DNA of 47,771 nt from Lujinxingiaceae bacterium. Lineage in GTDB: Bacteria; Myxococcota_A; Bradymonadia; Bradymonadales; Bradymonadaceae. The translations under genes were made by a program, and so were the position numbers. The notes under the pieces are model-generated. The model saw nothing but the letters and a program-made list of their open reading frames with translations, was not told the DNA's origin and searched no databases. Shown piece by piece: positions 1,228-46,212 of this stretch; the first letter of the stretch is position 1, and every line of letters starts with the position of its first letter. Where the stretch lies: positions 1 through 47,771 of the forward strand of contig JACCWM010000196.1 in the NCBI GenBank assembly GCA_013697635.1. The letters run 5' to 3'.

Positions 1228-1300
1228 GGGGGAGGAGCCCGGCTTCCATCGCCGCAAACCCACATGGTTTCAGGCTAACATGGCGTTCCACCCCCGGGCG
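1228..1300 (-). repeat. Dispersed intergenic element, copy A
   Basis: On the minus strand this reads CGGGGG (1291-1296), 41 nt, then ATGGAAGCC (1241-1249). The 41-nt interior holds AAACC-CACAT-GGTTT, a 5-bp stem. The copy starts 11 nt after the stop of the GyrA-pinwheel gene and lies before the shared terminator. Its distal end diverges (CCGGGCTCC instead of CCCGGCTGCC). Confidence 0.75.
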
Positions 1301-1310
1301 TTGGCGTTTT

Positions 1311-4202: not shown

Positions 4203-6440
4203 TTACCTGCTTTCAATAGGGGCCAAGACCCGTTCAAGATTTCTGCGATGTGCGAGCCGCCAATCGGAGATCGCACCGCGATGAAGCCGGCGAAGCTCGA
4301 GAAAGACCGCCTGCAAGACCAGGGATACCGCGATCGGATCGTCTGGCCTCTGCAGGGCATAGGCGACCACGGGGTGCGCTCTAAACAGCACCATGCTCCA
4401 CTCGTTGAGCGATGCGATGCGCGGCGCCGGGCCGCCATAAAACGCGATGCTGGGCGCACCGAGCACATGGTGAGACTCGTTGGCAAGCGTTGCGCTCATC
4501 AGCTCGCTGACTAAACGCCCGAGCTGATGCTCAGCATCACTGGAAGCTTGTGCCTTCGGCGAGTCGGCGCTCGGGGCCGGCCGGCCAGGCGCCGGATCGA
4601 CGGTGAGTTCGCCCCAGCTCTCGCGCTCAAGCGTGCCCATGATGTGTGGGCCGAAGACGGCGCGGAAAATCGCGTTCGTCGCGACGTGAAACTGCAAATA
4701 CAGGTTGTCAGGGTTGCGGTTGACGTGAGGGATCCACAGGGCCTGATCCTCTCTGGGCAGCAGCCAGCACGCGCCGGCCGCCTCGCCGCGGATGAAGGCA
4801 TTGATCTGGCGAAGCGAGAGCAACTCGCCGGCCACGTCGTCAAACAAGGGCGTGTCGGCGATCGCGCCGAGCGCCTCGAGGATCTGGTCGGTCAGCGTCG
4901 CGCTCGCAAGCTCGCTCCAATCCAGCGCGTGAACCTGCCAGACCGAAAGCCTGTCCCCGGCGGCGCAGGTGTCGCTCCAGCTTTGAAGGGCCGCCTCGCT
5001 GAGGTCGATCGCCGCAGCGATGCGTCCGAGCAAACGACCATCGAGCAGCTCATGCAAGTAGTCGACGGTTTGCGTGGCGGGCATGCGCGCTTTGGGATGA
5101 TGCATAAACTCAGGCAGCGCCTCGAGAATAGCCAGGCCGAGCGCGTCGAGCTCGGCCGTGCTCCGTGGCCCGTCGAAGCGCTCATTGGGCTGAAAATCGC
5201 CACACAACACCATGCTCAAGCGCATGCAGCGAACGCCCAGGGGCCGTTGCACGAGCAGGCGGCCATCGCGCACAAAGGCCACCATGCCGGACATGTCGAA
5301 GGTGTCCATGCCGACGACCGCGCGCATCCGGGCGTGCTCCAAAACCATTTGGTGGGGATAGTGGATCTTGGACAGCCCTTCGGACCACACGAGCCCCTCC
5401 CAGCGGTCGCGATTTTTCTGTGTTTCGCGCACCGCGTGCAGGCGATCGGTGAGATCGACGATCTCGTCGACAAAACGCAAGAAGAATGCCTCGGACTCAT
5501 CCGGCTCAGCATAGATGATCGGCGCATTGACCATGGCCCTGGCGTCGTCGCCATGCTCTCGACAGATGTACAGACGCCTGTGACCGACGCGGCGCAAAGC
5601 ATGGGCGATCGAAATGGGAACCGATGATCCGTTGAGCGAGTCTCCAACGGTGGCGTAGAGGGCGAGGCCTTCCGCGGCGCTAAAGAATGCGCGCTCGATC
5701 TCGGCGCTCAGCGGGGCCGCTTCGAATTGCCGATGAGCGCGCAACAGTGTCGGACGAAGCCAATCCTGCTGGACGGCGCGCTCGCCCGGGGTCAGGCTCG
5801 TGATAAAGCGTGTGAACAAGCGCCAGGTGGCTTCGCGCAGGACCTCGTCATGCAGAGTGCGCCAGGCCTCGTCCAAACGGCCGTTGAGCATGTCGAAGAA
5901 CTGGATGAAGTGGCGCGGTTGGATGCGCTCGCGAAGGTAGATGCGTGTGCCTTGCAAGCCGTCTTCGTTGCGAACTTTGCGCGTATTCAAAGCCCGCTCC
6001 GGGGCAAGGCGCGCGAGCACCGCCTGCTCACCGGCGCGAAGCAGCAGCCCGGCGCCCCCTTCAGGGCCCACCGATTCGATCACGATCTCACGCGGGCCAA
6101 GCGCCTTGGCCGCGTTGACCGCGATCGCGATGTGGCGAACGGCCCGTTGGCGTGCGTCGCTGCGCTCTGAAAACAAGGCGGATTGAAGCTCGCTCAGATC
6201 CTCGATGCCCAGGCTCTGCCCATCGAAGCATACCTCCATCTCGTCGGTGTCGATCACGAACTCGATGACCTTGGCCCCCAGCAGGTGTGCGGCCTTGACG
6301 AGCTCGAGCACGTAGTGGTGCGGATCGACGAGCTGAAAGCGCTCCAACTTGTCCGTGGCGCGCTCGGCGTCGACTTGAAACTGCCCGCGCCCCGCGAGTT
6401 TGCCCGCTGCGCGCGCCTTTGCAAGCAAGTCACCCGTCAC
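4203..6440 (-). CDS. Degenerate GHKL/Hsp90-like paralog 3 (internally deleted form)
   Basis: This 745-aa protein is the third tandem paralog. Its GTG start overlaps the stop of the preceding gene as GTGA. It shares with the other two the opening LxKARxxGxLxxxGxFxxDAERA, the VDPHHYVLELVKAAHLLGA segment, the RQRAVRH segment and a C-terminal HPVVAYALQRPDDP block. Relative to both siblings exactly 100 residues are missing between GRLDE and AWRTLH (junction near 5866-5873). The deletion removes the strand that ends the ATPase-like domain and the start of the middle region. The GHKL Asn is replaced (ELVKAAHLL), so ATP hydrolysis is doubtful even before the deletion. The frame is intact, so the protein is probably made. 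A Pro/Ala/Ser-rich linker precedes the last 120 residues or so. The function is unknown. Confidence 0.7.
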   Translation of the reverse strand: MTGDLLAKARAAGKLAGRGQFQVDAERATDKLERFQLVDPHHYVLELVKAAHLLGAKVIEFVIDTDEMEVCFDGQSLGIEDLSELQSALFSERSDARQRAVRHIAIAVNAAKALGPREIVIESVGPEGGAGLLLRAGEQAVLARLAPERALNTRKVRNEDGLQGTRIYLRERIQPRHFIQFFDMLNGRLDEAWRTLHDEVLREATWRLFTRFITSLTPGERAVQQDWLRPTLLRAHRQFEAAPLSAEIERAFFSAAEGLALYATVGDSLNGSSVPISIAHALRRVGHRRLYICREHGDDARAMVNAPIIYAEPDESEAFFLRFVDEIVDLTDRLHAVRETQKNRDRWEGLVWSEGLSKIHYPHQMVLEHARMRAVVGMDTFDMSGMVAFVRDGRLLVQRPLGVRCMRLSMVLCGDFQPNERFDGPRSTAELDALGLAILEALPEFMHHPKARMPATQTVDYLHELLDGRLLGRIAAAIDLSEAALQSWSDTCAAGDRLSVWQVHALDWSELASATLTDQILEALGAIADTPLFDDVAGELLSLRQINAFIRGEAAGACWLLPREDQALWIPHVNRNPDNLYLQFHVATNAIFRAVFGPHIMGTLERESWGELTVDPAPGRPAPSADSPKAQASSDAEHQLGRLVSELMSATLANESHHVLGAPSIAFYGGPAPRIASLNEWSMVLFRAHPVVAYALQRPDDPIAVSLVLQAVFLELRRLHRGAISDWRLAHRRNLERVLAPIESR

Positions 6441-9016
6441 GATCGCCTCTTCTGTGCGCTTGCGAGCACCCGGTTGAGGTGTTCACGGTAGCCTGCGCTC
6501 CAGTTCACGTCGCGAAAATACGGGCGAAGCGCAGCGCTCGCAGCCAAAGCCAGCATCGAGACTGCAACCGGGTCGTGGGGGCGAGCGAGCGCGTGGGCAA
6601 CGAGCGGATGCTCGGAGAAGAGCGTGATGCGGGCGCCGTCGGTCTCCACGGCGCGCACCGTCGGCCCAGCGCGAAGCGTGATCAATGCCACGCCCGCGCT
6701 AGCGTCGCCTTTGATCACGACGGCCAGGAGTTGTTGGACCCTCGCCACCAGCTGAGTTGAGTGGTTGTGTTGGGCTGCTGGCGGCGCAACCGCCGGCGTG
6801 TTGTTGGCGGGCGGCGTTGTGGACGATGGCGATGGCCCTGGTGATGGTGCCGGTGTTGACGATGAATTGACGGCTCGCAGCGATGTAATCGTAAATTCGC
6901 CAAAGACGGCGTTCAAGATTGAGAGTACCGGCTCGTCGCTTCGAATGAAGAGCCTGTCGGGCTCGCTCCTCATCTGGGCGAGCCAGTCGCTCATGTTCAT
7001 CTTTGCAGGCAGTACGTAGCATCTTTGGGCGACAATATGCTCGTAGATCTGGCGAAGCGATTGGTCGGCGCCAACCAGATTGGGGAAGATCGGCAGGTCT
7101 GCGGCCGGCCCGAGCATGACAAGCTTGGCCAAAGGTGTTGCCCGGCTGCACCGCCAGGGTGAGACCCGCTGGGGATCACTTGATGTCGTCTCCAGCGTCG
7201 CCTGCCATTGGCTCAGGGCCTCGCCTTCAACTGGAAAGTCCGCGGTCAGACGCCAGAGCAAGCGCTCACTGAGCAGCTTTTCGAGATAGGATAGCGCCAC
7301 ATCCGTGGGCTTGTGCTGCAGATGCTCGTTTACAAATGATGGCAGCGCCTCGAGCATCGCGATCACCAAGGCCGTGAGCTCGGGCGTGACGGCCGGCCCG
7401 TCGAATGCGGCGTTGGGTGTGAGCTCTCCGGAAAAAATGATCGTCAGACCGCTCAAGGTTCCATCGCTCAAGTGTTGGCGCTTGAGCAGGCGCCCCTGCT
7501 TGACGAAGATCACCGTGCCACGCGCGCTCGAATCGTTGAGCCCGATGGCCACGCGCAAATCCCCATGCTCGATGACCTTTCGATACGGGTAATACATCGG
7601 TGCTGGTAGGGAATCCCTGGGGGTTTGCTCCCAGAGCTTGCGATTTTGTTCGGCCAGGCGAAAGATCTCGACGCGATCGGTGAGGTCGACGACCTCGTCG
7701 GCAAAACGCAAGAATAAGGCTTCGGGCTCGCCATGCGCCGCATAGATCACCGGCGCGCCGACCAGCCGCTCGGCCTCATTGGACGGTCGCCGACAGATAT
7801 GGATGCGCGTGAGCTCTCCGATGCGCTGGGTCGCCTCCGTGATCGAGATCAAGGGTTTTTTGGGCAGCGAGCCGTCGGCTTGCGCATAGATCGCCGTGGT
7901 CGCCAGCTTGAAGAAAAATCCCCGATCGGCGACCAGATCTTCGGGCGCGATGCGACCCCCAAAATGCGGGCTCTTGGTGGTGTGCAGGCGCACGGGACGG
8001 TCTTTGGTGCGCTCGTGGGCGCGCAACACCAGTTGGCGAAGCCAGTCCTGTTTTTCTTCGATCACCTGCGCCGCCAGCCCGCTGACATGCATCTCGAGCG
8101 AGCGCCACATCGCCGCTTGCACGACGCCGCCGTGCAGGGTCTGCCAGGCCTCGTCTTGCACAAACGCGCTCTGCGAGAGGTTGGTCGTCAGCCGGCGCGA
8201 ATCGACGATCGCCTCGACGCCGACCACGTCTGCGCTAAAGATCTGAGTGTCGATAAAAACGCCGTGTTGCAAGACATTGATGCGCAACTTGTCGTCGTCC
8301 GAGATTCCCAGCCGGCCGTTTTCGAGCGGCGTGTCGATCTCGACTACGGCCAGCGCCCGCTTACTTAGCCCGTGCCCTTGATTGATGCTGACCCGGTTGA
8401 CGAAGATTGGGACCTTGGCATAACGCGCCCGCTCGCCCAGGGCGACGACCTCGTTGAGCCGGCCCTTGAGCTTGTCGAAGAACTGCATGATGTGGCGCGT
8501 CTGCGTGCGCTGGCGCAGATAGACGCGGGTGCCAAGCGTCGCCGCTTGGATCTTGATGCCGGTAAGTGACGCTCCGGCGACAAGGCGCACCAGCCGCGGC
8601 TCGGCGTCGCGTCGAAGCACGAGGCGACAGCCGCCGTAGGCGCTAACCGACTCCACGACGATCTCGCCCGGCCCCAACGCCTGGGCCGAGCTTGCCGCAA
8701 TCGCCATATGGCGAACGGCACGCTGGCGATCGTCGGTGCGCGACGAAAACGCTGCCCCGTAAAAGTCCTCCAGGTCATCGAAGCCCAGCGTCTGCCCGTC
8801 AAAGAACACCTCCATCTCGTCGGTGTCGATCTCGAACTCGATGACCTTGGCTCCCAGCAGATGCGCAGCCTTGACGAGTTCCAGAACATAGTGGTGCGGA
8901 TCGACGAGCTGAAAGCGCGCCATCTTCTCCTTGGCGCGCTCGGCATCGAGTCGAAACTCACCCTGCGCCTCGAGCCTGCCCGCCCCGCGAGCCTTTTCCA
9001 GCCACTCGGTCGTCAC
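6437..9016 (-). CDS. Degenerate GHKL/Hsp90-like paralog 2
   Basis: This 859-aa protein starts with GTG at 9016, overlapping the upstream stop by 4 bp (GTGA). The N-terminus (1-110) is laid out like a GHKL domain, but the N-box is E46-L-V-K-A50-A-H-L-L-G-A. Ala sits where the Mg-binding Asn should be and Leu where the Asp should be. D73-G-Q-T-L stands in place of DxGxG, and no GxxGxG lid motif is seen. Next come GTRVYLRQRTQ, then AKVPIFVNRVSIN, paralleling GTHIRI and ARIPVIFEG in the intact ATPase downstream. A VDLTDR block (about residue 455), a long unrecognised middle, a Pro/Ser/Thr-rich linker near residues 715-755 and a conserved 110-residue tail (HPLVAHALARPHDP) follow. It is probably a non-hydrolysing partner in a complex with its paralogs and the intact ATPase (inference). 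The family is not recognised. Confidence 0.7.
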   Translation of the reverse strand: MTTEWLEKARGAGRLEAQGEFRLDAERAKEKMARFQLVDPHHYVLELVKAAHLLGAKVIEFEIDTDEMEVFFDGQTLGFDDLEDFYGAAFSSRTDDRQRAVRHMAIAASSAQALGPGEIVVESVSAYGGCRLVLRRDAEPRLVRLVAGASLTGIKIQAATLGTRVYLRQRTQTRHIMQFFDKLKGRLNEVVALGERARYAKVPIFVNRVSINQGHGLSKRALAVVEIDTPLENGRLGISDDDKLRINVLQHGVFIDTQIFSADVVGVEAIVDSRRLTTNLSQSAFVQDEAWQTLHGGVVQAAMWRSLEMHVSGLAAQVIEEKQDWLRQLVLRAHERTKDRPVRLHTTKSPHFGGRIAPEDLVADRGFFFKLATTAIYAQADGSLPKKPLISITEATQRIGELTRIHICRRPSNEAERLVGAPVIYAAHGEPEALFLRFADEVVDLTDRVEIFRLAEQNRKLWEQTPRDSLPAPMYYPYRKVIEHGDLRVAIGLNDSSARGTVIFVKQGRLLKRQHLSDGTLSGLTIIFSGELTPNAAFDGPAVTPELTALVIAMLEALPSFVNEHLQHKPTDVALSYLEKLLSERLLWRLTADFPVEGEALSQWQATLETTSSDPQRVSPWRCSRATPLAKLVMLGPAADLPIFPNLVGADQSLRQIYEHIVAQRCYVLPAKMNMSDWLAQMRSEPDRLFIRSDEPVLSILNAVFGEFTITSLRAVNSSSTPAPSPGPSPSSTTPPANNTPAVAPPAAQHNHSTQLVARVQQLLAVVIKGDASAGVALITLRAGPTVRAVETDGARITLFSEHPLVAHALARPHDPVAVSMLALAASAALRPYFRDVNWSAGYREHLNRVLASAQKRRS
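8901..8959. repeat. 59-bp direct repeat shared by paralog genes (copy 1)
   Basis: This 59-nt stretch is identical to 11417-11475. Both encode the segment around DAERAKEKMARFQLVD near the start of paralogs 2 and 1. Identity at silent sites implies recent duplication or gene conversion confined to the 5' ends, because the rest of the two genes has diverged further. Confidence 0.8.
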
Positions 9017-11535
9017 GTGTTTCTCCGTTCGTTGGACGGGTTGAGGATGTCGCTGATTTGTGCGCGATGGGCCGCGCCCCAGGCAATGTCCTTGAGGTAG
9101 GGGCGAAGCGCGCCGCGCGCCGCCACGGCCACCATATGGGCGGCGAAACGATCGTCTGGACGGGCCAGAGCGTGGGCGACGACCGGATGCTCGGCAAAGA
9201 GCGTGATAACCTGGCCATCGGTCGCAGCAATCGCCGGCGCGGGCCCGCTTTTGAAGCGGATCACAGTGGCATTGAGCAGGGGTTCGATGTGAGCGCGCAG
9301 GCGCTCTTCGTCGCTCATCCGCGTTTCCACGGGCTTTGGTGTCGCCGCGGGCTTTGGCGAAGCCACGGGCTTTGGCGAGGGCTGCGGGACTTGAGGTTCC
9401 CCCCGAAATTGGCCATTACCACCGGTCACGACCTGGCCGTTGATCGTGACGCTGCTTTTCGAAGGCATGACGCTCTGCAAAGCCGCGATCGTCGGTTTAC
9501 CGAAGACATTTTCGAGAATCGAAAGGCTAACGCGGGGTTGAATATACAACGTCTGGGTATTCTGCTCGCTCATCGATCTCCAGGCCCGCAAGTCGCCGGA
9601 TTCGGGCACCAGGATGCAACGATTGTCCGCAATGTGTTCATGGATTTGGCGCAGCGAATGGTCGACGCCTCGCAGGTCGGGGAAAAGCGCCACGTCGGCC
9701 GCCGGGCCCAGAAGTTCGATCGTTTCCGCGGCTGTGGCGTCGTCTCTATTCCACAGGCTTGGCTGGCTCGCGCTGCGCAAGGCCAGCTGCCAGGCCGCAA
9801 ACACGATCGCCTCGATGTGAAAATCCGACCCGAGACAACGAAGCAGACGGCCGTTGAGCAGCGCCCTGAGATAATCGAGTGCATAGCTCTTTTTCATGTA
9901 TTGCAGATGCTCGTTCACGAATCGCGGCAGGGCATCGAGCAGCGCAAGGCCCAGGACGCTGAGCTCGGCGCAATGGGCCGGGCCGTCAAAGAGCTCGTTG
10001 GCAGCGAGCTTACCCGAAAAGATGAAGCTCAGCCCCCGCGAGCTCTGCTCACTGAGGTGACCGCTCTTGAGCGGGCCGCCCTCTTTGACAAAAATGACCG
10101 TGCTGTGCGCACCAGAGCCGTTGAGGCCCACCACCACGCGCAACTCCCCGTGATCGAGCGCCATCTGATGGGGGGACCAGTTGCGTGGGGGCGCCGCATC
10201 TCGGCTTGAGCTTGCCCACTTCGCCTTGTTGTTAAGCGCCTGTCTGTGCACCTCGATGCGCTCAGTGAGGTCGACGACCTCGTCGGCGAAGCGCAAGAAC
10301 AGGGCCGTGGGCTCATGGAGGTCGGATAAAATGACGGGCGCGCCGGCCAGCGCTTCGGCCTCCTTGGAGGGGCGCCGGCAGATGTGGATGCGTGTGTTCT
10401 GGCCGATGCGTTGGGTGGCCGCAGCGATCGCGATCAGCGGCATCGATTTATCGGCTTGCTGGTAGATCGGCGTCATTGCCACGCGGGTGAAAAAGCCGTG
10501 ATCGGCGACTCTGTCCGTTCGCGCATGGGCGCGCAGCACGAGTTGGCGCAGCCACAGCTGGCCTTCGCCGAAGATCTCGAGCAAGCTCAGGTTGGCCACG
10601 TAGAGCTCGAGCGAGCGCCACATCGCCTCTTGCACGACGCCGCCGTGCAACATCTGCCAGGCCTCGTCTTGGACAAAGGCGCTTTGCGAGAGGTTGGTCG
10701 TCAGCCGGCACGAATCGACGATCGCCTCGACGCCGACCACGTCGGCGGTAAAGACCTGGGTATCGATGAAGACGCCATGCTGGAGCACCTTGATCTGCAT
10801 GTTGCCATCGACCGCGATCCCCAGTCGCCCACGCTCGTGGCTGGTAGCGATCTCGACTACGGCCAGTGCTTTGTCGCTCAGCCCCGAGCCCCGCGTGATG
10901 TCTACCCCGTTGACCACGATCGGTATCGTCGCATAGCGCGCCCGCTCTTCGAGCGCGAGCGTCTCATTGAGCCGTCCCTTGAGCTTGTCGAAGAACTGCA
11001 TGATGTGGCGCGTCTGCATGCGCTGGCGCAGATAGACGCGCGTGCCCACGGCAAGAGCCGACGAAATCTTGACAAGGCCCGGCGTAATCTCGGGCCCAAG
11101 GCGCACCGGCACAGGCTCGACCCCGCGCCCGAGCACCAGCCGACAGCCTCCGCGCGCAGCGATCGACTCCAAGACGATCTCGCGCGGCCCAAGCGCCTGG
11201 GCGGCGTTGACCGCGATCGCCAGGTGGCGCACGGCGCGCTGGCGGTCGTCCGTGCGCGCCGAAAACGCCGCTGAGTAAAAATCGCTGACCTCCTCGAAGT
11301 CCAGCGTCTGCCCATCGAAGAACACCTCCATCTCGTCGGCATCGATCACGAACTCGATGACGCTAGCCTCGAGCAGATGCGCGGCCTTGACCAGCTCCAA
11401 GACATAGCGATGGGGGTCGACGAGCTGAAAGCGCGCCATCTTCTCCTTGGCGCGCTCGGCATCGAGTCGAAACTCGCCACGCGCCTCGAGCCTGCCCACC
11501 CCGCGAGCTTTTTCCAACCAATCGGTCGTGGTCAT
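9013..11535 (-). CDS. Degenerate GHKL/Hsp90-like paralog 1, first gene of the block
   Basis: This 840-aa protein has an ATG start at 11535. It has the same architecture as the next gene: a GHKL-like N-terminal region with the Asn-less box ELVKAAHLLEA, GTRVYLRQRMQ, a strand reading IPIVVNGVDI, a middle region with VDLTERIEVHRQ, a linker of repeated SPKP/TPKP units near residues 705-735, and a conserved tail (HPVVAHALARPDD). A PSLWNRDD-containing region has no clear counterpart in the shortest paralog. It begins the minus-strand block, with 339 nt of spacer upstream. No signal peptide or membrane helix is seen, so it should be cytoplasmic. GHKL ancestry is my inference from motif order; a profile search is needed to settle it. 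Confidence 0.7.
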   Translation of the reverse strand: MTTTDWLEKARGVGRLEARGEFRLDAERAKEKMARFQLVDPHRYVLELVKAAHLLEASVIEFVIDADEMEVFFDGQTLDFEEVSDFYSAAFSARTDDRQRAVRHLAIAVNAAQALGPREIVLESIAARGGCRLVLGRGVEPVPVRLGPEITPGLVKISSALAVGTRVYLRQRMQTRHIMQFFDKLKGRLNETLALEERARYATIPIVVNGVDITRGSGLSDKALAVVEIATSHERGRLGIAVDGNMQIKVLQHGVFIDTQVFTADVVGVEAIVDSCRLTTNLSQSAFVQDEAWQMLHGGVVQEAMWRSLELYVANLSLLEIFGEGQLWLRQLVLRAHARTDRVADHGFFTRVAMTPIYQQADKSMPLIAIAAATQRIGQNTRIHICRRPSKEAEALAGAPVILSDLHEPTALFLRFADEVVDLTERIEVHRQALNNKAKWASSSRDAAPPRNWSPHQMALDHGELRVVVGLNGSGAHSTVIFVKEGGPLKSGHLSEQSSRGLSFIFSGKLAANELFDGPAHCAELSVLGLALLDALPRFVNEHLQYMKKSYALDYLRALLNGRLLRCLGSDFHIEAIVFAAWQLALRSASQPSLWNRDDATAAETIELLGPAADVALFPDLRGVDHSLRQIHEHIADNRCILVPESGDLRAWRSMSEQNTQTLYIQPRVSLSILENVFGKPTIAALQSVMPSKSSVTINGQVVTGGNGQFRGEPQVPQPSPKPVASPKPAATPKPVETRMSDEERLRAHIEPLLNATVIRFKSGPAPAIAATDGQVITLFAEHPVVAHALARPDDRFAAHMVAVAARGALRPYLKDIAWGAAHRAQISDILNPSNERRNT
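11417..11475. repeat. 59-bp direct repeat shared by paralog genes (copy 2)
   Basis: Identical to 8901-8959; see that entry. It lies within the first 40 codons of paralog 1. Confidence 0.8.
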
Positions 11536-11584: not shown

Positions 11585-11645
11585 AAGCCGGGACCGGCAA
11601 CCTCGAAGCGTTGAGGGTGGGGGTCAAAAATCAGGTCAAAGCCCC

Positions 11646-11725
11646 GGGGGCAGCCGGGCTTCAATGCCGGAAAATACGCTCAGTTACAGGCCCATCAGGC
11701 ATCGATCCCCCATTTCTTCTGGGGG
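11646..11725 (-). repeat. Dispersed intergenic element, copy C
   Basis: On the minus strand this reads TGGGGG (11707-11712), 41 nt, then ATTGAAGCCCGGCTGCC (11649-11665). The first box is the 3' arm of a hairpin whose arms are 11707-11712 and 11720-11725 (7-nt loop). This copy lies between two divergent genes, so it follows no gene end. Confidence 0.7.
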
Positions 11726-19738: not shown

Positions 19739-19818
19739 TCCCCCAAAATTTCGGGGATTAACCACGCTCACGTCCAGCGCCAGCGCGGATTTCCCGCCTT
19801 GCAAGCCCGGCTGCCCGT
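19739..19818 (+). repeat. Dispersed intergenic element, copy B
   Basis: CGGGGA (19752-19757), 41 nt, then TTGCAAGCCCGGCTGCC (19799-19815). The first box is the 3' arm of a weak hairpin (CCCC at 19741-19744), which with its AAAATTT centre may also end transcription of the BKACE gene, whose stop lies 3 nt before. It lies between convergent genes. Confidence 0.75.
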
Positions 19819-19837
19819 GCCATCCGCCCGCCCCAAA

Positions 19838-25114: not shown

Positions 25115-25202
25115 TCAACGGCTCCTGGTGCTGTTTGGTTTCGTTAACTCTCCACAGCAATAGCACAAATCAATTCACCAAGAAAGGCGCGTGGATGTCT
25201 CA

Positions 25203-25276
25203 GGGGCAGGCGGGCTTCCATTGCGAGAATCCCTTGCGGGTAAAGGCTGACCAGGCAGGCGACCCCCGATTTTTTG
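25203..25276 (-). repeat. Dispersed intergenic element, copy D
   Basis: On the minus strand CGGGGG (25263-25268), 41 nt, then ATGGAAGCCCGCCTGCCCC (25203-25221). It lies in the 372-nt spacer 25115-25486, between the lipoprotein gene and the RAYT gene. The remainder of that spacer is less GC-rich than its surroundings and holds no gene or clear promoter that I can support. Confidence 0.75.
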
Positions 25277-25486
25277 TGACAAATCATCATGGTGAGCGCG
25301 CTCTCGGCTAACGTTGTTAGCACCACAAGTAACTTTTTAAGCAACATTTGAAGGGGATCTCTCGAAAACAAGTAGGAGGGGTTCTTGCTCCTCGTCGGTG
25401 ACTTAAATGACACTAAAATCTCGTGCTCCTTAATCCAAGCCTCCGTTTTTGGTCTGGGATCCGGAGCCCAGCCGAGGGCATCTCTC

Positions 25487-26599
25487 ATGGTCGACCGTAC
25501 CTTTTTAAAGCAGCACGCCGCGTCAATGGCCGAAATGGAAATGTTGTTCGAGGAGAATCCGGGCTTGTTCGGGCATATTCTTGACCGGAAAACGACGGAA
25601 ACCGATGGCGCGGGCGTCGGACACAAAAGCGATGAGAAGTCAGCCACCGGACCCGATGACGAGCCACTGATAGTCGAGCAAAACGACCAACCGGATGGCG
25701 GAGCCAAGGGCTGGATCTACTTCCACATCACCAGCCGCGTCCATTTTCAGCGACGCATCTTCGAGCGCGAAGAGGTCAAGGAGATGCTGCGCAAGCATTG
25801 CTTGCACTATGCTCGGGTGTGCGAGGTGGCGCTGTTGAATTACTGCTTTATGGACAACCACTTTCATCTCAATGTGGCCGTTCGCGTCGAAGCCTTGGCG
25901 TGTTTCAACGCCTCGAAGTTCGTTGGCTGCATCAAGCAGCAGTTCACCAACGAGTACAAGATTTGGTTCAATGGTCCCTACCGTCGCGAGAAGCGGCACC
26001 GCCCCAAGGAACTGGGAAATGGAACGTTGTGGGAGGGGCGTCCGCACATCGAACGTATTGAAGATGACGCGCAATTCGCAGCATGCACCCTTTACATCGA
26101 GGCCAACAGACTTCGCGCCTGCTCAGGTGCCCAACTCGATGCGCTCGAGGAGCCGCCGATGCTCAGAACCCATGATGACGAGGAGGCGCGCCTTCAGCCA
26201 TGCTACGAGGAACTCCTCGAACGCGTTCAATCCTACCGTTATCAATCCGCCCGTTGGTATATCGGCGGCTGTCAGGGTGAGGAACCTGCGCTGACCGACG
26301 GCACTGACGGCAACTGGGCAAGCGAGCAGGAACTCGAGCTCTGGTGGGAGGTGCCCGTGCGTGATCTCCCCAAGGGCTGGCGCAAGGTGTGGTTCAAGGA
26401 GCGCCCGGGCATCCTAAAGCCGACCCTGGCCCATGCACGCAGTTATATGGAGAATCCGTTCATTGCACGTCTTGGCTCAACGCCCCAGGCGCGCGGTCGT
26501 ACGTTTGCGCGCCTGCTGATGAGCACCTGCTGGCACGGCCGCAATCGGCGAGTCTGCGATGACGACGAGGGCAACGAGCCGGGCGTCGTGGATTTTTGA
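25487..26599 (+). CDS. REP-associated tyrosine transposase (RAYT, Y1/IS200-like family)
   Basis: About 370 aa from ATG 25487, with GAGGG 9 nt upstream. The Y1 transposase core is visible: WIYFHITSRV (first strand), NYCFMDNHFHLNV with the HUH metal-binding His pair, KQQFTNEYKIWFN carrying the probable catalytic Tyr, then GTLWEGRPHIERI and LYIEANRLRA. That last series is diagnostic of RAYTs, single-copy domesticated-type transposases that act on REP-like intergenic palindromes instead of forming IS elements. An acidic 85-residue N-terminal extension and a 130-residue C-terminal extension are unusual. No terminal inverted repeats or target duplication are seen. An intergenic element copy lies 211 nt upstream and another about 800 nt downstream. 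Confidence 0.85.
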   Translation: MVDRTFLKQHAASMAEMEMLFEENPGLFGHILDRKTTETDGAGVGHKSDEKSATGPDDEPLIVEQNDQPDGGAKGWIYFHITSRVHFQRRIFEREEVKEMLRKHCLHYARVCEVALLNYCFMDNHFHLNVAVRVEALACFNASKFVGCIKQQFTNEYKIWFNGPYRREKRHRPKELGNGTLWEGRPHIERIEDDAQFAACTLYIEANRLRACSGAQLDALEEPPMLRTHDDEEARLQPCYEELLERVQSYRYQSARWYIGGCQGEEPALTDGTDGNWASEQELELWWEVPVRDLPKGWRKVWFKERPGILKPTLAHARSYMENPFIARLGSTPQARGRTFARLLMSTCWHGRNRRVCDDDEGNEPGVVDF

Positions 26600-26633
26600 C
26601 CGCTTCAACCGTCGAAGAGACTTTGTAACGGAG

Positions 26634-27293
26634 TCACTGCGTGATGTCTTTGTCGCGGCGCTTTCTTGCACGCGTCAACGCATGCCATGTAGCAACGGCT
26701 GCGCAAAAAACCAGGGTGAGTGGCAATGCGTAGCTCAGTGCAAAGGCCTGTATGGCCTCGATCCACTGTGCCAGCGATGCGCCAAGCAAGTAAGCGGCGC
26801 TTACCCAGAATAGTTGAGCGACGATCATCAGCAAGAACATGCGCCGGGGCGAGACACGGGCAACACCGGCGATCGTCGCCAGCATTGGGCCAGGAAGCGC
26901 GAGCAGCACTACGGGCGCAGCACGCTCGACCAGGCCCAGCAGCTGCTCGAGACGCTCCTGATTTGCGGGCGTGTGTTCACTCAGCCACTGGATGGCCCAC
27001 GGACCAAAGGAGCGGCCAAAGAGGTATCCAAGCCAAGATTGAGCGAGCGAAACCAGGATCGCCAGGGGAAAGAAAAGCGCTGCCGGCAGAAGTGGCGCAG
27101 TGATGATGAGGTGGGGTACGAAAGGACTGAGCGCGATGAGGCCTGCTGGCGCGTACGCAAGCAAGGCTGGCGAAAACGCCGTACCGCAAGCACGCATGGC
27201 CAACATCAGCGCGAATCCGGCCAGCAGCCAACGTTTTGATTGTGGACTCACTTGCTCATTTTCACTCTCCCACGCTTCTTCGCCCACGCTCAA
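26634..27293 (-). CDS. DedA/VTT-like multi-span membrane protein
   Basis: About 219 aa with four or five hydrophobic segments. The middle reads FPLAILVSLAQSWLGYLFGRSFG and ERAAPVVLLALPGPMLATIAGVARVSPRRM, given here as segments LGYLFGRSFG and LLALPGPMLATIAGVARVS. It resembles the SNARE-associated/DedA family, which moves lipids across membranes, but is divergent. Start: TTG 27293, with AGGAG 5 nt upstream; GTG 27287 is an alternative. The frame runs open another 55 codons into intergenic element E, which I do not take as coding. It is convergent with the RAYT gene, 34 nt between stops. Confidence 0.65.
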   Translation of the reverse strand: MSVGEEAWESENEQVSPQSKRWLLAGFALMLAMRACGTAFSPALLAYAPAGLIALSPFVPHLIITAPLLPAALFFPLAILVSLAQSWLGYLFGRSFGPWAIQWLSEHTPANQERLEQLLGLVERAAPVVLLALPGPMLATIAGVARVSPRRMFLLMIVAQLFWVSAAYLLGASLAQWIEAIQAFALSYALPLTLVFCAAVATWHALTRARKRRDKDITQ

Positions 27294-27401
27294 GGCAACT
27301 CCTGTGTGACCGTCCTTCGGCCACGTTGTTGACGAAGCATAATAAGTGGGCTTCAACCCCGCTGTCCACTTACTGAGAATCAACTCCAAAAAACGTGGTT
27401 T

Positions 27402-27509
27402 GGCCCAAAGGCAGACGGGCCCAAAGGCAGACGGGCCCAAAGGCAGACGGGCTTCCATCGCCGCAAATCCTTACGGGATTTGGACGACCGACCTGTCCAC
27501 CCCCGATTC
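27402..27509 (-). repeat. Dispersed intergenic element, copy E, with tandem 16-bp expansion
   Basis: On the minus strand CGGGGG (27500-27505), 41 nt, then ATGGAAGCCCGTCTGCC. The interior forms AAATCC/GGATTT (27465-27470 with 27476-27481). The end is repeated: the unit GGCAGACGGGCCCAAA occupies 27410-27425 and 27426-27441, and a third copy begins at 27442. It lies in the 349-nt spacer 27294-27642 between divergent genes. Confidence 0.8.
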
Positions 27510-27569
27510 GTGTCGTTTCGTCGACGAGAATTTGCTCTTGGCAGCTATGCGGATTGGCCATTTGCTGGT

Positions 27570-28955: not shown

Positions 28956-29933
28956 CTAAATACACTCCAAGAAGTCGTTCATCTCGTGGCCGAGCTTGTC
29001 GTGTAGGAAGAATTTGAAGTCGTCGCGAACTTCCAACTCGATCTGGCGGATGCGCTCCTTGGAGACCTGAAACTCCAGACCCAGATCGGCTAGTTGTTTG
29101 GGCTCACCTTGGACCATGCGGTCTTGCCAGATCGCGCGCTTGCGCTCGTCGGCCAGGCCGCGGGCAAACTCTTCCATCATCACCCGCAGCTTGTCCAAGC
29201 AGTGACTTCGAGTGGCTACTTCTTCGGGGTTCTCCTGTTCGCCAGCGAACTGATCACCGATACTCACACCGTCCATTCCAGGCACGGGACCGTCGAGATA
29301 GACCGTCTTTCCGTCGAGCTGCGCGCTGACGTGGACCACATCTTCGACATCGACATCCAAATACTGCGCCACCAGTGCCGGCGTGGGCTCAAGGCCTTCT
29401 TTGAGCAGCGCGCGACGAGCCTTCTTGAGATTATAGAAGAGCTTGCGCCCGGCGCGGCTGCCTCCAAGGCGCACGGAATGGAGCTGATTCATCAGATGAT
29501 TGAGCATCATCGCCCGCACCCAGAATTGAGCGTAGCCTGTGAACTTGACGCCTCGGTGGGGGTTGTAGCGCGAGAGTGCCTCGGTTAAACCCAGGTTTCC
29601 TTCCTGGATGAGATCGAGCAAATCGCTCCAGCGTCGGGCATACTCGCGGGCGATCTTGACCACCAGTCGCAGGTTGGTCCAGACCAGCATTTGTCCGGCC
29701 TCGACATCTCCCTTGAGGTAGCGCTCGGCCAGCTCTTGTTGCTCCTCCACGGAGAGCAGTGTGATGCAGCGCAATCGATTCATATAACTGGTGAGCGCAT
29801 CAATCGAGGCGTTTGAGGCGTGCTCGCCCGGGACCTGAGTGTACATCAGGTCACAGTTGACGCTATCCAGCGGCGCTGCCGGCTTTAGAACGAGATCACG
29901 CGATTGGAACTCGATTGCCAGGGAGGAGGCCAT
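28956..29933 (-). CDS. rpoH: RpoH-type sigma factor (sigma-70 family, group 3)
   Basis: This 325-aa alternative sigma factor resembles the heat-shock sigma-32 family. Region 1.2-2 is clear (ITLLSVEEQQELAERYLKGD; LRLVVKIAREYARRW; DLLDLIQEGNLGLTEALSRY; KFTGYAQFWVRAMMLNHLMN). The RpoH-box-like GRKLFYNLKKARR follows. Region 4.2 near the end is LADLGLEFQVSKERIRQIE. A 45-residue N-terminal extension precedes region 1.2. The spacing of region 2 to RpoH-box supports RpoH over RpoS. A sigma-54 promoter match sits 55 nt upstream, which would place a heat-shock-type sigma under an enhancer-dependent regulator. Other paralogs in the genome could carry the housekeeping RpoH role. Confidence 0.88.
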   Translation of the reverse strand: MASSLAIEFQSRDLVLKPAAPLDSVNCDLMYTQVPGEHASNASIDALTSYMNRLRCITLLSVEEQQELAERYLKGDVEAGQMLVWTNLRLVVKIAREYARRWSDLLDLIQEGNLGLTEALSRYNPHRGVKFTGYAQFWVRAMMLNHLMNQLHSVRLGGSRAGRKLFYNLKKARRALLKEGLEPTPALVAQYLDVDVEDVVHVSAQLDGKTVYLDGPVPGMDGVSIGDQFAGEQENPEEVATRSHCLDKLRVMMEEFARGLADERKRAIWQDRMVQGEPKQLADLGLEFQVSKERIRQIELEVRDDFKFFLHDKLGHEMNDFLECI

Positions 29934-32936: not shown

Positions 32937-32954
32937 AAGGCGGCGTGTGCGACT

Positions 32955-33080
32955 AATTTCGGGGGTGAATGGCCCGCGCGAGCAATATCCGTGAGGGTTT
33001 CCGGGGTTGGAAGCCCGGCTGCCATTGCGCGGCTGCCATTGCGGCACGGCTGCCATTGCGGCACGGCTGCCATTGCGGCA
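32955..33080 (+). repeat. Dispersed intergenic element, copy F, with tandem 17-bp expansion
   Basis: CGGGGG (32960-32965), 41 nt, then TTGGAAGCCCGGCTGCC (33007-33023). The end is amplified: CGGCTGCCATTGCG at 33016-33029, then three 17-bp units CGGCTGCCATTGCGGCA at 33030-33046, 33047-33063 and 33064-33080. It fills the spacer between convergent stops (32936 and 33087). Confidence 0.85.
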
Positions 33081-33086
33081 TGGCCA

Positions 33087-34526
33087 TCAGGGGCTGGCGA
33101 ACTTCCAGATGGCGAATCGCCCGTCTTTCTGTCCACCCACGATGAAGGATCCGTTGGGCCCAAGCAGCACCGTGTGTGCCGCGCTTGAAACGTTAGGCAG
33201 ATACTCCTCGAACGACTTCTCGAGCTTGCCGTCGGTATCGTAGCGATGCACGAGAGGTCGTGAGTTGTTGGTGAGGCTGGTTCGTGTGCCCACGGCGATG
33301 AGCTGCTGACCATCATGGGCACACGCCTCGTAGCGATCGCCATTGGGTGTTTGGTTGTCGAGGACTCCGTAGCTTGCGTCAGTAAAGCTCAAAACAGCAC
33401 GACCGTGTTGGCTCTGGTCCGTTTGCTGCATATGTCCAACGCTCAAGACGCGGCCGATTGTATCAACTGTGATGCCTCGGGCGCTCCCTGCACTCAGATT
33501 CTCTCCTGTGAATTCCGCGGTGAACACGGTGGGCGCGGCCCAATCAATTGTCGCCATGAGGAGCTTGTGGTCCCCGCCGTGCCCGGCCTCGCCTACGGCG
33601 CGAAGAATGTCTCCTGAGGCCACCAGAGCGTGCAGTTGATGGGTGTCGTAGTCTGGGATTTCGAAGATCAATTCAACGAAGCCGCCAGTGGAACTCCCAT
33701 AAAGATTGAGATAGTAAATGCGGCCCGTGTTTTCCTTGTAGCCGCTGATCGCAATGGAGTCTTTCCAGATCGTCATGCCCGTGGTCACCGCGCCGTCCGC
33801 AGGAAATGTCCGGATCTCGTGGATGTTGTCCATGGCGACGGCAGCCCCATCAGCGCTAAATCTTGTTACAAAAACCGTGGAGACTTGCGATGTTTCAAGG
33901 TACTTGGCTTCCAGGTGACCGGCGACGTAAATTTCGTCGCCTTTAGTGGTGACGCCCGTCGCAATGACCTTCGAAAAATCAGGATGGTCGGGAATTACGA
34001 TTCTCAGGCCAAACATGTCGTCGAGCTCACCATCTTCGGTGAGACGCCCGAGGACGCTCATCGATGGTCCCGTTGCGATGAAGACGTAGCCTTGGTTGTG
34101 GCGAGCGATATCAACGACCTTGAGCTGATTGTCTTCGGTGCTCACTTCAATGAACTCCCAGGCCAGGGGACTTTGAGGACCCACGTCGGCGTCTGCAGCG
34201 TCTTGACTGGAGTCGCCATCGCTCTGCACATCGCTCGTCGATAGGGTGTCGGGCTGCTGGCCGGAGTCGGCGTCTGCAACATCGGGCTGCTGGCCGGAGT
34301 CGGCGTCTGCAACATCGGGCTGGCGGCCGGAGTCGGCGTCTGCGGTATCCGAGAGGCCGGTGTCAGCGTCCGTGGCATCGCTTATCGCCACGTCCTCGGC
34401 GCTGTCCTGGGACTTGAAGGGATGATCGGCGGGATTGAGCAAACATCCGCAGAGAATCGTCATGGCCAGAAAGGCTAGAACCGCGGTCATGGTATGGTTT
34501 GAAGACATCATCTTTTTCAATGGCAA
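33087..34526 (-). CDS. Lipoprotein with Asp/Ser/Gln/Pro repeats and beta-propeller-like domain
   Basis: About 479 aa. A signal peptide leads to a CGC lipobox region (Cys about 28). The linker (about 40-115) contains three identical-type 11-residue units, VADADSGQQPD. The remaining 360 residues have recurring strands of the type IYVAGH, AISGY, LRAVGEAG, LSVGHM and FIVGGQKDGRFAIWKF. They resemble the delta-60-type repeat of secreted propellers. The start is uncertain: TTG 34526, TTG 34520 (which gives a typical MKKMM) or ATG 34511; none has a good ribosome binding site. It looks less GC-rich than the neighbouring oxidase genes. Function unknown. Confidence 0.7.
   Translation of the reverse strand: MPLKKMMSSNHTMTAVLAFLAMTILCGCLLNPADHPFKSQDSAEDVAISDATDADTGLSDTADADSGRQPDVADADSGQQPDVADADSGQQPDTLSTSDVQSDGDSSQDAADADVGPQSPLAWEFIEVSTEDNQLKVVDIARHNQGYVFIATGPSMSVLGRLTEDGELDDMFGLRIVIPDHPDFSKVIATGVTTKGDEIYVAGHLEAKYLETSQVSTVFVTRFSADGAAVAMDNIHEIRTFPADGAVTTGMTIWKDSIAISGYKENTGRIYYLNLYGSSTGGFVELIFEIPDYDTHQLHALVASGDILRAVGEAGHGGDHKLLMATIDWAAPTVFTAEFTGENLSAGSARGITVDTIGRVLSVGHMQQTDQSQHGRAVLSFTDASYGVLDNQTPNGDRYEACAHDGQQLIAVGTRTSLTNNSRPLVHRYDTDGKLEKSFEEYLPNVSSAAHTVLLGPNGSFIVGGQKDGRFAIWKFASP
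34249..34347. repeat. Three tandem 33-bp repeats inside the lipoprotein linker
   Basis: Units at 34249-34281, 34282-34314 and 34315-34347; the first two are almost identical and the third has several changes. Each encodes one 11-residue linker unit, so copy number can change without shifting the frame. Confidence 0.85.
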
Positions 34527-46108: not shown

Positions 46109-46212
46109 CCACCTCCCAAAAAAACGGGAGTGGACGGCCCGATGGGCTAGTTTCTGCGCGCGTTTGCCGCCATGCAAGCCCGGCTGCCCCTGGGGCTGCT
46201 GCCCCTGGAGCT
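46109..46212 (+). repeat. Dispersed intergenic element, copy G
   Basis: CGGGAG (46125-46130), 41 nt, then ATGCAAGCCCGGCTGCCCC (46172-46190), followed by a partial second unit (GGCTGCTGCCCC). The first box is the 3' arm of a hairpin with CCACCTCCC (46109-46117) and an A-rich loop, 5 nt after the regulator gene stop. It lies between convergent genes. Confidence 0.8.

Follow-up and report, generated by a model that had tools for sequence, protein, structure and literature searches.

A dispersed 70-nt repeat beside a RAYT-like transposase subfamily in a bradymonad genome, and a promoter-like box common to these genes and DNA-uptake genes

Repeats associated with a transposase-like gene of their own are described in several arrangements. 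In REPtrons, a RAYT (TnpA-REP), an HUH/Y1 protein of the IS200 kind, is combined with GTAG-type REPs, palindromes of 20-40 bp that belong to one family and occur both beside the gene and scattered elsewhere (PMC2817692; PMC3733652; PMC6006769). TIRtrons (TIRYT) comprise a Y1 gene beside longer non-GTAG repeats, which form moderate families and keep a similar distance at several genes (PMC3733652), and the Y1 domain is also typical of IS200/IS605. The benefit brought by RAYTs to their hosts is an open question. Haemophilus CRP-S and streptococcal ComX represent competence regulons of other bacteria, and no link between RAYTs and competence was found in the open-access literature searched (top-ranked results; most subscription papers were outside the scope), PMC3686654 having both words and touching on competence only in passing. 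Here, we describe a RAYT-like gene preceded by a copy of a dispersed repeat and by a promoter-like box that also stands before DNA-uptake genes.

The stretch analysed, hereafter the window, is a contig of 47,771 nucleotides (C170) from a 6.21-Mb, 213-contig assembly (G000). The initial annotation placed a RAYT gene at 25487-26599 and seven copies of one element in the window, and both claims held. The features are listed below, E-values of elements being taken from a genome-wide search with the sequence-only model R2.

1232-1309, forward strand: element A (R2 E 3.4e-14)
11645-11723, forward strand: element B (R2 E 8.0e-15)
19739-19819, reverse strand: element C (R2 E 8.5e-16)
25201-25280, forward strand: element D, located in the leader of the RAYT gene (R2 E 7.8e-15, alignment)
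25341-25370, forward strand: P-box GCAAC-N14-TCTCGAAAACA, promoter-like (pattern match; R1 E 3.0e-6, the site itself being in the training set)
25487-26599, forward strand: RAYT-like HUH/Y1 transposase gene (370 aa, PF01797 E 2.6e-7)
27438-27516, forward strand: element E, past the VTT gene, with tandem partial repeats of its 5' end before it (R2 E 1.2e-16)
32948-33027, reverse strand: element F, preceded by partial tandem copies (R2 E 2.4e-15)
46113-46192, reverse strand: element G (R2 E 2.6e-18)

The scores of the seven window copies (each E <= 3.4e-14) are high by construction, since these copies and 13 others went into building R2; an initial family of 15 seeds had already recovered the remaining copies before R2. 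The placement of D and E around the gene held as well, with one qualification. The 3' end of D lies 206 nt before the RAYT ATG (211 nt had been claimed), and E starts about 840 nt past the stop codon, close to the 800 nt proposed; as a VTT-domain gene (ORF 26634-27458) intervenes, E does not directly flank the RAYT, and only D is a true neighbour. The P-box at 25341-25370 had been missed. Apart from these features, the window contains a sigma-70-family gene (28956-29933, regions 1.2 and 2) about 2.4 kb downstream of the RAYT and without known tie to the P-box, three long similar stretches in succession about 2.5 kb apart (5113-11396), which are probably tandem paralogues, and a 33-nt repeat present three times head-to-tail, two units being identical (34249-34347).

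Attribution of a protein as a RAYT may rest on a Y1/HUH domain with the H-hydrophobic-H motif and catalytic tyrosine, on the cut-off of the NCBIfam model NF047646 (REP_Tyr_transpos), and on cognate repeats next to the gene and scattered genome-wide. The first is met: the match to Y1_Tnp (PF01797) is above the Pfam cut-off, and the HUH motif NHFHL and the tyrosine stretch YxExNR (YIEANR) are invariant or nearly so in the four paralogues described below. The second is not, NF047646 giving 44.8 bits against a curated cut-off of 80, although this RAYT model is the protein's sole NCBIfam match. The third is met by all four genes of the subfamily and by the genome-wide matches of the element. The transposase also looks domesticated, which is inferred from sequence alone.

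The element is a repeat of about 70 nt with two motifs at fixed spacing. Twenty copies align without gaps over 85 columns with conservation around GNAGNCGGGCTTC and CACCCCCGA, and 18 of them have CCCC at an offset of 57-58 relative to the first G. R2 matches the genome at least 68 times at E<=0.05, including 58 matches at E<1e-5; this count is a lower bound, 150 of 1852 first-look candidates having been scored. No strong match was detected in the other 28 genomes searched with R2, the best (E 1e-3) being in G011. Copies are clustered, with seven in the 47.8-kb window contig and arrays in contigs C82, C20, and C123, and many of them are preceded by tandem partial copies of the element 5' end. 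Four of the seven window copies (B, E, F, and G; not A, C, or D) overlap an ATG-started frame of at least 150 aa, these frames not being shown to be genes. Dense tandem arrays composed of the element and its 5' third were observed at L035 (C82), L034 (C74), and C20:61913-62554.

The caution that these elements are not classical REPs held. Folding of eight copies as DNA gave no consistent hairpin (z from -1.40 to +1.46), RNAalifold on the seven window copies returned 6 pairs with no compensatory change, and neither GTAG nor CGTC was found at one end in the conserved columns of the 20-copy alignment. A classical REP is thus ruled out by the lack of hairpin and tag, and an RNA element or riboswitch by the absence of conserved structure and of any Rfam match at gathering scores. 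An integron attC site was set aside on copy layout alone because copies are 2-14 kb apart in mixed orientation.

Nine Y1 genes are present in this genome, eight revealed as Y1_Tnp matches and one as a RAYT-like gene in contig C2. Four of them, in contigs C170, C102, C138, and C200, compose a subfamily, the last three products sharing 72, 40, and 55% identity with the window protein, respectively. Each of the four is preceded by an element copy, with 206, 211, 186, and 188 nt, in the same order, between copy and ATG; that of C200 has degenerated and scored only weakly in the initial scan (E 0.023), and the C102 gene has an additional, inverted copy downstream. The other five Y1 genes yielded no element, the stretches around those of C191, C73, C5, and C32 being scanned and C2 being covered by the R2 search. 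Since all four subfamily genes have an upstream copy and none was found at the other five, the link between RAYT and element is supported. Distant members of the subfamily among 57 genomes are two genes in G011 and one in G003. Both G011 genes are preceded by two tandem repeats of about 70 nt (96% and 99% identical within pairs), the letters of which are unlike the element; they contain GAAG-N5-CTTC and then CCCC at offset 58, that is, the same two-motif layout and spacing. The same scan gave no such repeat at the G003 gene. The earlier idea that the RAYT is the agent spreading the elements is therefore supported, with binding and mobilisation by the protein remaining inferred, and the outcome of the check then suggested, co-presence of RAYT and element, is favourable, the element being strong only in the genome with the four-gene subfamily. 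We regard the element as the probable substrate of the RAYT, a part of the whole explanation that we think likely, binding, cutting, and mobilisation all being inferred.

Comparison of upstream regions disclosed a second motif between D and the gene start, GCAAC-N13/14-TCTCGAWAACA, called here the P-box. The sequence TCTCGAWAACARR has 10 matches in G000, all with GCAAC 13-14 nt earlier, and the bipartite pattern has 11 matches there and 0 if read backwards. Elsewhere among the 57 genomes, it occurs six times, in G013, G016, and G008, four of these sites preceding RAYT-like genes. The model R1, made of these 17 boxes (11 from G000 and 6 others), recovers 23 sites at E<=0.05 in G000. A looser pattern, GCAACN{12,15}TSYCGAHAAC, picks out 97 sites in G010, 20 in G007, and 18 in G000, the respective control counts being 0, 1, and 2; each of the other 18 family genomes has 0-5 sites (controls 0-2). 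Sites fetched anew were 17 of 20 in G007, 3 of 18 in G000, and 60 in G010 away from Y1 genes, G010 being covered in part. In a blind scan of 576 G000 tiles (700 nt), 10 scored at least 12 of 13, comprising five known boxes, a new one before a ComEA-like gene, and four others, and none of 201 tiles from box-free strands of G010 and G007 reached this score. The box is rare, lies in sense orientation, and is mostly located 40-120 nt upstream of the start codon. Its shape resembles a -35/-10 pair of a specialised sigma factor or an activator site, which is an inference made in the absence of expression or binding data. A housekeeping promoter was ruled out given the rarity of the box (18-97 sites in the three richest genomes) and the absence of ribosomal and polymerase genes among those seen behind it.

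Genes behind the box represent the classic DNA-uptake and processing set. In G000, boxes outside the training set precede the genes for ComEC (box E 4.3e-4; PF03772 2.2e-46), YifB/ComM (box E 2.2e-3; TIGR00368, 608 bits), UPF0102/YraN (box E 0.029), a ComF-like protein (box E 0.032; TIGR00201 64.7 bits, below cut-off), SctR (box E 5.6e-5), and BrxC/D; the YraN and ComF-like boxes are weak taken singly, and the remaining new R1 boxes precede genes unidentified or without Pfam match. The dprA box is itself a member of the R1 training set, and the box before the ComEA-like gene comes from the blind tile scan, the helix-hairpin-helix end of the product being judged by eye. Among 30 proteins chosen for Pfam identification in two relatives, several had no match and not all G010 boxes were covered. 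In G007, which we take to be Bradymonas sediminis FA350, the box precedes genes for DprA, RecA, SSB, ComF-like, HHH/ComEA-like, FHIPEP, and FliP proteins, and in G010, taken to be the genome matching Persicimonas caeni YN101, those for RecA, SSB, YifB, UPF0102, HHH, FHIPEP, FliP, DUF559, PDDEXK_3, and 23S_rRNA_IVP; dprA and comEC boxes are present in both. Scanning of 18 of 21 dprA rows gave scores of at least 12 in G010, G007, G000, G004, and G005 (5 of 13 family stretches), and of 15 of 18 comEC rows in G000, G003, G010, and G007 (4 of 11), matches in G021 and G025 being excluded as outside the family. Several family genomes thus have dprA or comEC without clear box. The G006 dprA match (score 12) was dismissed as it reads as coding sequence of the upstream gene, and so do the best dprA matches in G011, G009, and G013 (11, 11, and 9). 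G005 has no Y1_Tnp match yet carries a box-like site at dprA, so the box is independent of RAYTs. An upstream motif common to DNA-uptake genes, as expected of a competence regulon, is thus present; co-induction and transformability are inferred.

Type III export genes (FliO-like, SctR/FliP, FHIPEP) are boxed in three genomes (G000:C102:22116-22711, L321, L326, L334, L363), which would fit joint control of prey killing and DNA uptake, though this is no more than possible. DUF559, PDDEXK_3, and 23S_rRNA_IVP genes, or their look-alikes recognised by eye, stand behind the box at G010 loci L333, L356, L362, L388, L368, and L373. About 22 box copies in G010 are each followed by a conserved leader of about 110 nt without evident gene (L332, L338, L341, L343, L346, L350-L352, L354, L357, L359, and others), conceivably a non-coding RNA family or small mobile element driven by the P-box.

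Box occurrence at Y1 genes was surveyed for 60 of 73 Y1_Tnp rows in 21 genomes, leaving out the four G000 subfamily genes, an additional row for one G008 gene, and 8 rows belonging to G023-G025. A score of at least 12 was obtained in 34 of 60 upstream stretches and in 0 of 60 on the reverse strand; among 20 random shuffles made per stretch, at least one reached 12 for 6 of 60 genes. Every Y1 gene of G010 (26 of 26) is boxed, and the other eight belong to G007 (2), G003 (2), G008, G011, G004, and G000 (C191), one G003 site (L219), 696 nt from the domain, being counted and possibly unrelated. In G000, the box precedes six of nine Y1 genes (C191, C170, C102, C138, C200, and C2), with one mismatch in C138. 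Y1 genes lacking it are 7 of 9 in G007, 3 of 9 in G000, one member of the G011 subfamily pair, and both Pfam-detected ones in G013; RAYT-like genes outside the Pfam listing are also boxed in G013, G016, G018, G002, and G008. The spelling is TGYCGA in G010 Y1 genes, as in G010 dprA, and TCTCGA in all six G000 genes. Boxed Y1 proteins are very unlike each other (22-40% identity between groups, or not alignable). The G010 RAYTs (n=20; four sampled) share 69-85% mutual identity, so the 26 boxed genes represent far fewer than 26 independent events. Boxed genes also include a true IS200-type one (C191; NF033573 77 bits, cut-off 55) and six IS200-like ones in G010. The unboxed RAYT-like genes of C5 and C32 (L044, L045) have upstream, as judged by eye, a common TTGACC-type promoter and GTCGGCTGCCC repeats. 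In a different RAYT type, short repeats flank the gene in G016 (L401 1576-1796 and 3375-3420) and lie on a single side of it in G013 (L399 921-1088); they read as small palindromes CGAC-TCCCG-GTCG and are probably that type's own REP family.

Thus, the repeat family, its tie to the RAYT subfamily, the common box, and the genes behind it are established, and the functioning of the box as a promoter, its assignment to a competence or predation regulon, the action of the RAYT on the element, and its timing are inferred. The account we consider likely, for which there are no data on expression, binding, or transformation, is that gene and repeats form a REPtron/TIRtron-type RAYT-repeat system run from a competence-type, perhaps predation-linked, P-box regulon. 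A sense, rare, -35/-10-like box before uptake and processing genes and type III export genes is most simply explained by a competence-type, perhaps prey-induced, regulon that includes RAYTs. The RAYT, as an HUH/Y1 nuclease, would by family act on single-stranded DNA, and copy D would be kept at a fixed place in its leader. Its transcription would start from the P-box, as for the type III export genes and those of DNA uptake and recombination (dprA, comEC, comEA-like, yifB/comM, comF-like, yraN, and, in relatives, recA and ssb). Since the box is common to those genes, we propose that the RAYT is made during competence or prey attack, when single-stranded DNA is abundant, and may at that time act on element copies by cutting and moving them. 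In B. sediminis, expression of five type III export genes and of pilT rises during predation (PMC7460792), their locus tags not being matched to box sites. A bolder reading, to be taken as a possibility, is that RAYTs have a working role in bradymonad natural transformation and predation: expressed from the competence promoter, they would process single-stranded prey DNA, and the repeats would spread as a by-product.

The best surviving alternative is a selfish hijack, in which still-mobile RAYT and IS200-type genes captured a host competence promoter, their expression thereby coinciding with the availability of single-stranded DNA and recombination, with no benefit to the host. It is favoured by near-identical multi-copy G010 RAYTs carrying the box along and by the boxed IS200-type genes; retention of the box in divergent single-copy RAYTs and its spelling as in each host speak against it, but neither excludes it, and we consider it possible, though less likely than the preferred account. 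Alternatively, the regulon denoted by the box may be one for DNA damage or other recombination (recA, ssb, dprA) and not for competence, in agreement with boxed recA and ssb in G007 and G010. This seems unlikely, as the box also stands before comEC, comEA-like, comF-like, and yifB/comM genes, and the genes identified behind it include neither lexA nor any uvr or error-prone polymerase gene, G010 boxes being incompletely covered. Finally, coincidence, meaning that another agent spread the repeats and they adjoin RAYT genes by chance, could appeal to the clustering of elements and to E not adjoining the RAYT, but is very unlikely given the same upstream position in 4 of 4 subfamily genes with none found at the other five Y1 genes, the same repeat layout at both G011 genes, and an expectation, by simple arithmetic from 68 copies per 6.21 Mb, of 0.004 copies in a 400-nt leader.

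For the competence-type regulon, a P-box common to DNA-uptake genes and divergent Y1 groups and spelled as in the host makes it testable that RAYTs act when single-stranded DNA enters the cell. The box also offers a way into the study of competence in predatory bradymonads and of how it relates to prey killing, two of these bacteria, B. sediminis and P. caeni, being available in culture. If RAYTs do participate in a transformation and predation programme, this would supply their missing host role.

Compared to REPtrons, the window system has the same kind of protein and the same disposition of one-family repeats, and differs in an element of about 70 nt with two spaced motifs and no conserved hairpin instead of a short palindrome, in a 370-aa protein below the NCBIfam RAYT cut-off, and in a promoter-like box common to com genes. 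IS200/IS605 shares the Y1 domain, and the boxed C191 gene is truly of IS200 type, whereas the window gene is not and no subterminal end hairpins were found. The P-box resembles the CRP-S and ComX regulons as a single upstream motif on genes of the comEC, comEA, dprA, comM, ssb, and recA type; it differs in motif, in including type III export genes and Y1 transposases, and in its regulator being unidentified. With TIRtrons, D and E disagree in having the same orientation and in E being not adjacent, whereas the longer non-GTAG repeats of a moderate family, their similar distance at several Y1 genes, and the inverted order of the copies flanking the C102 gene are all features in common.
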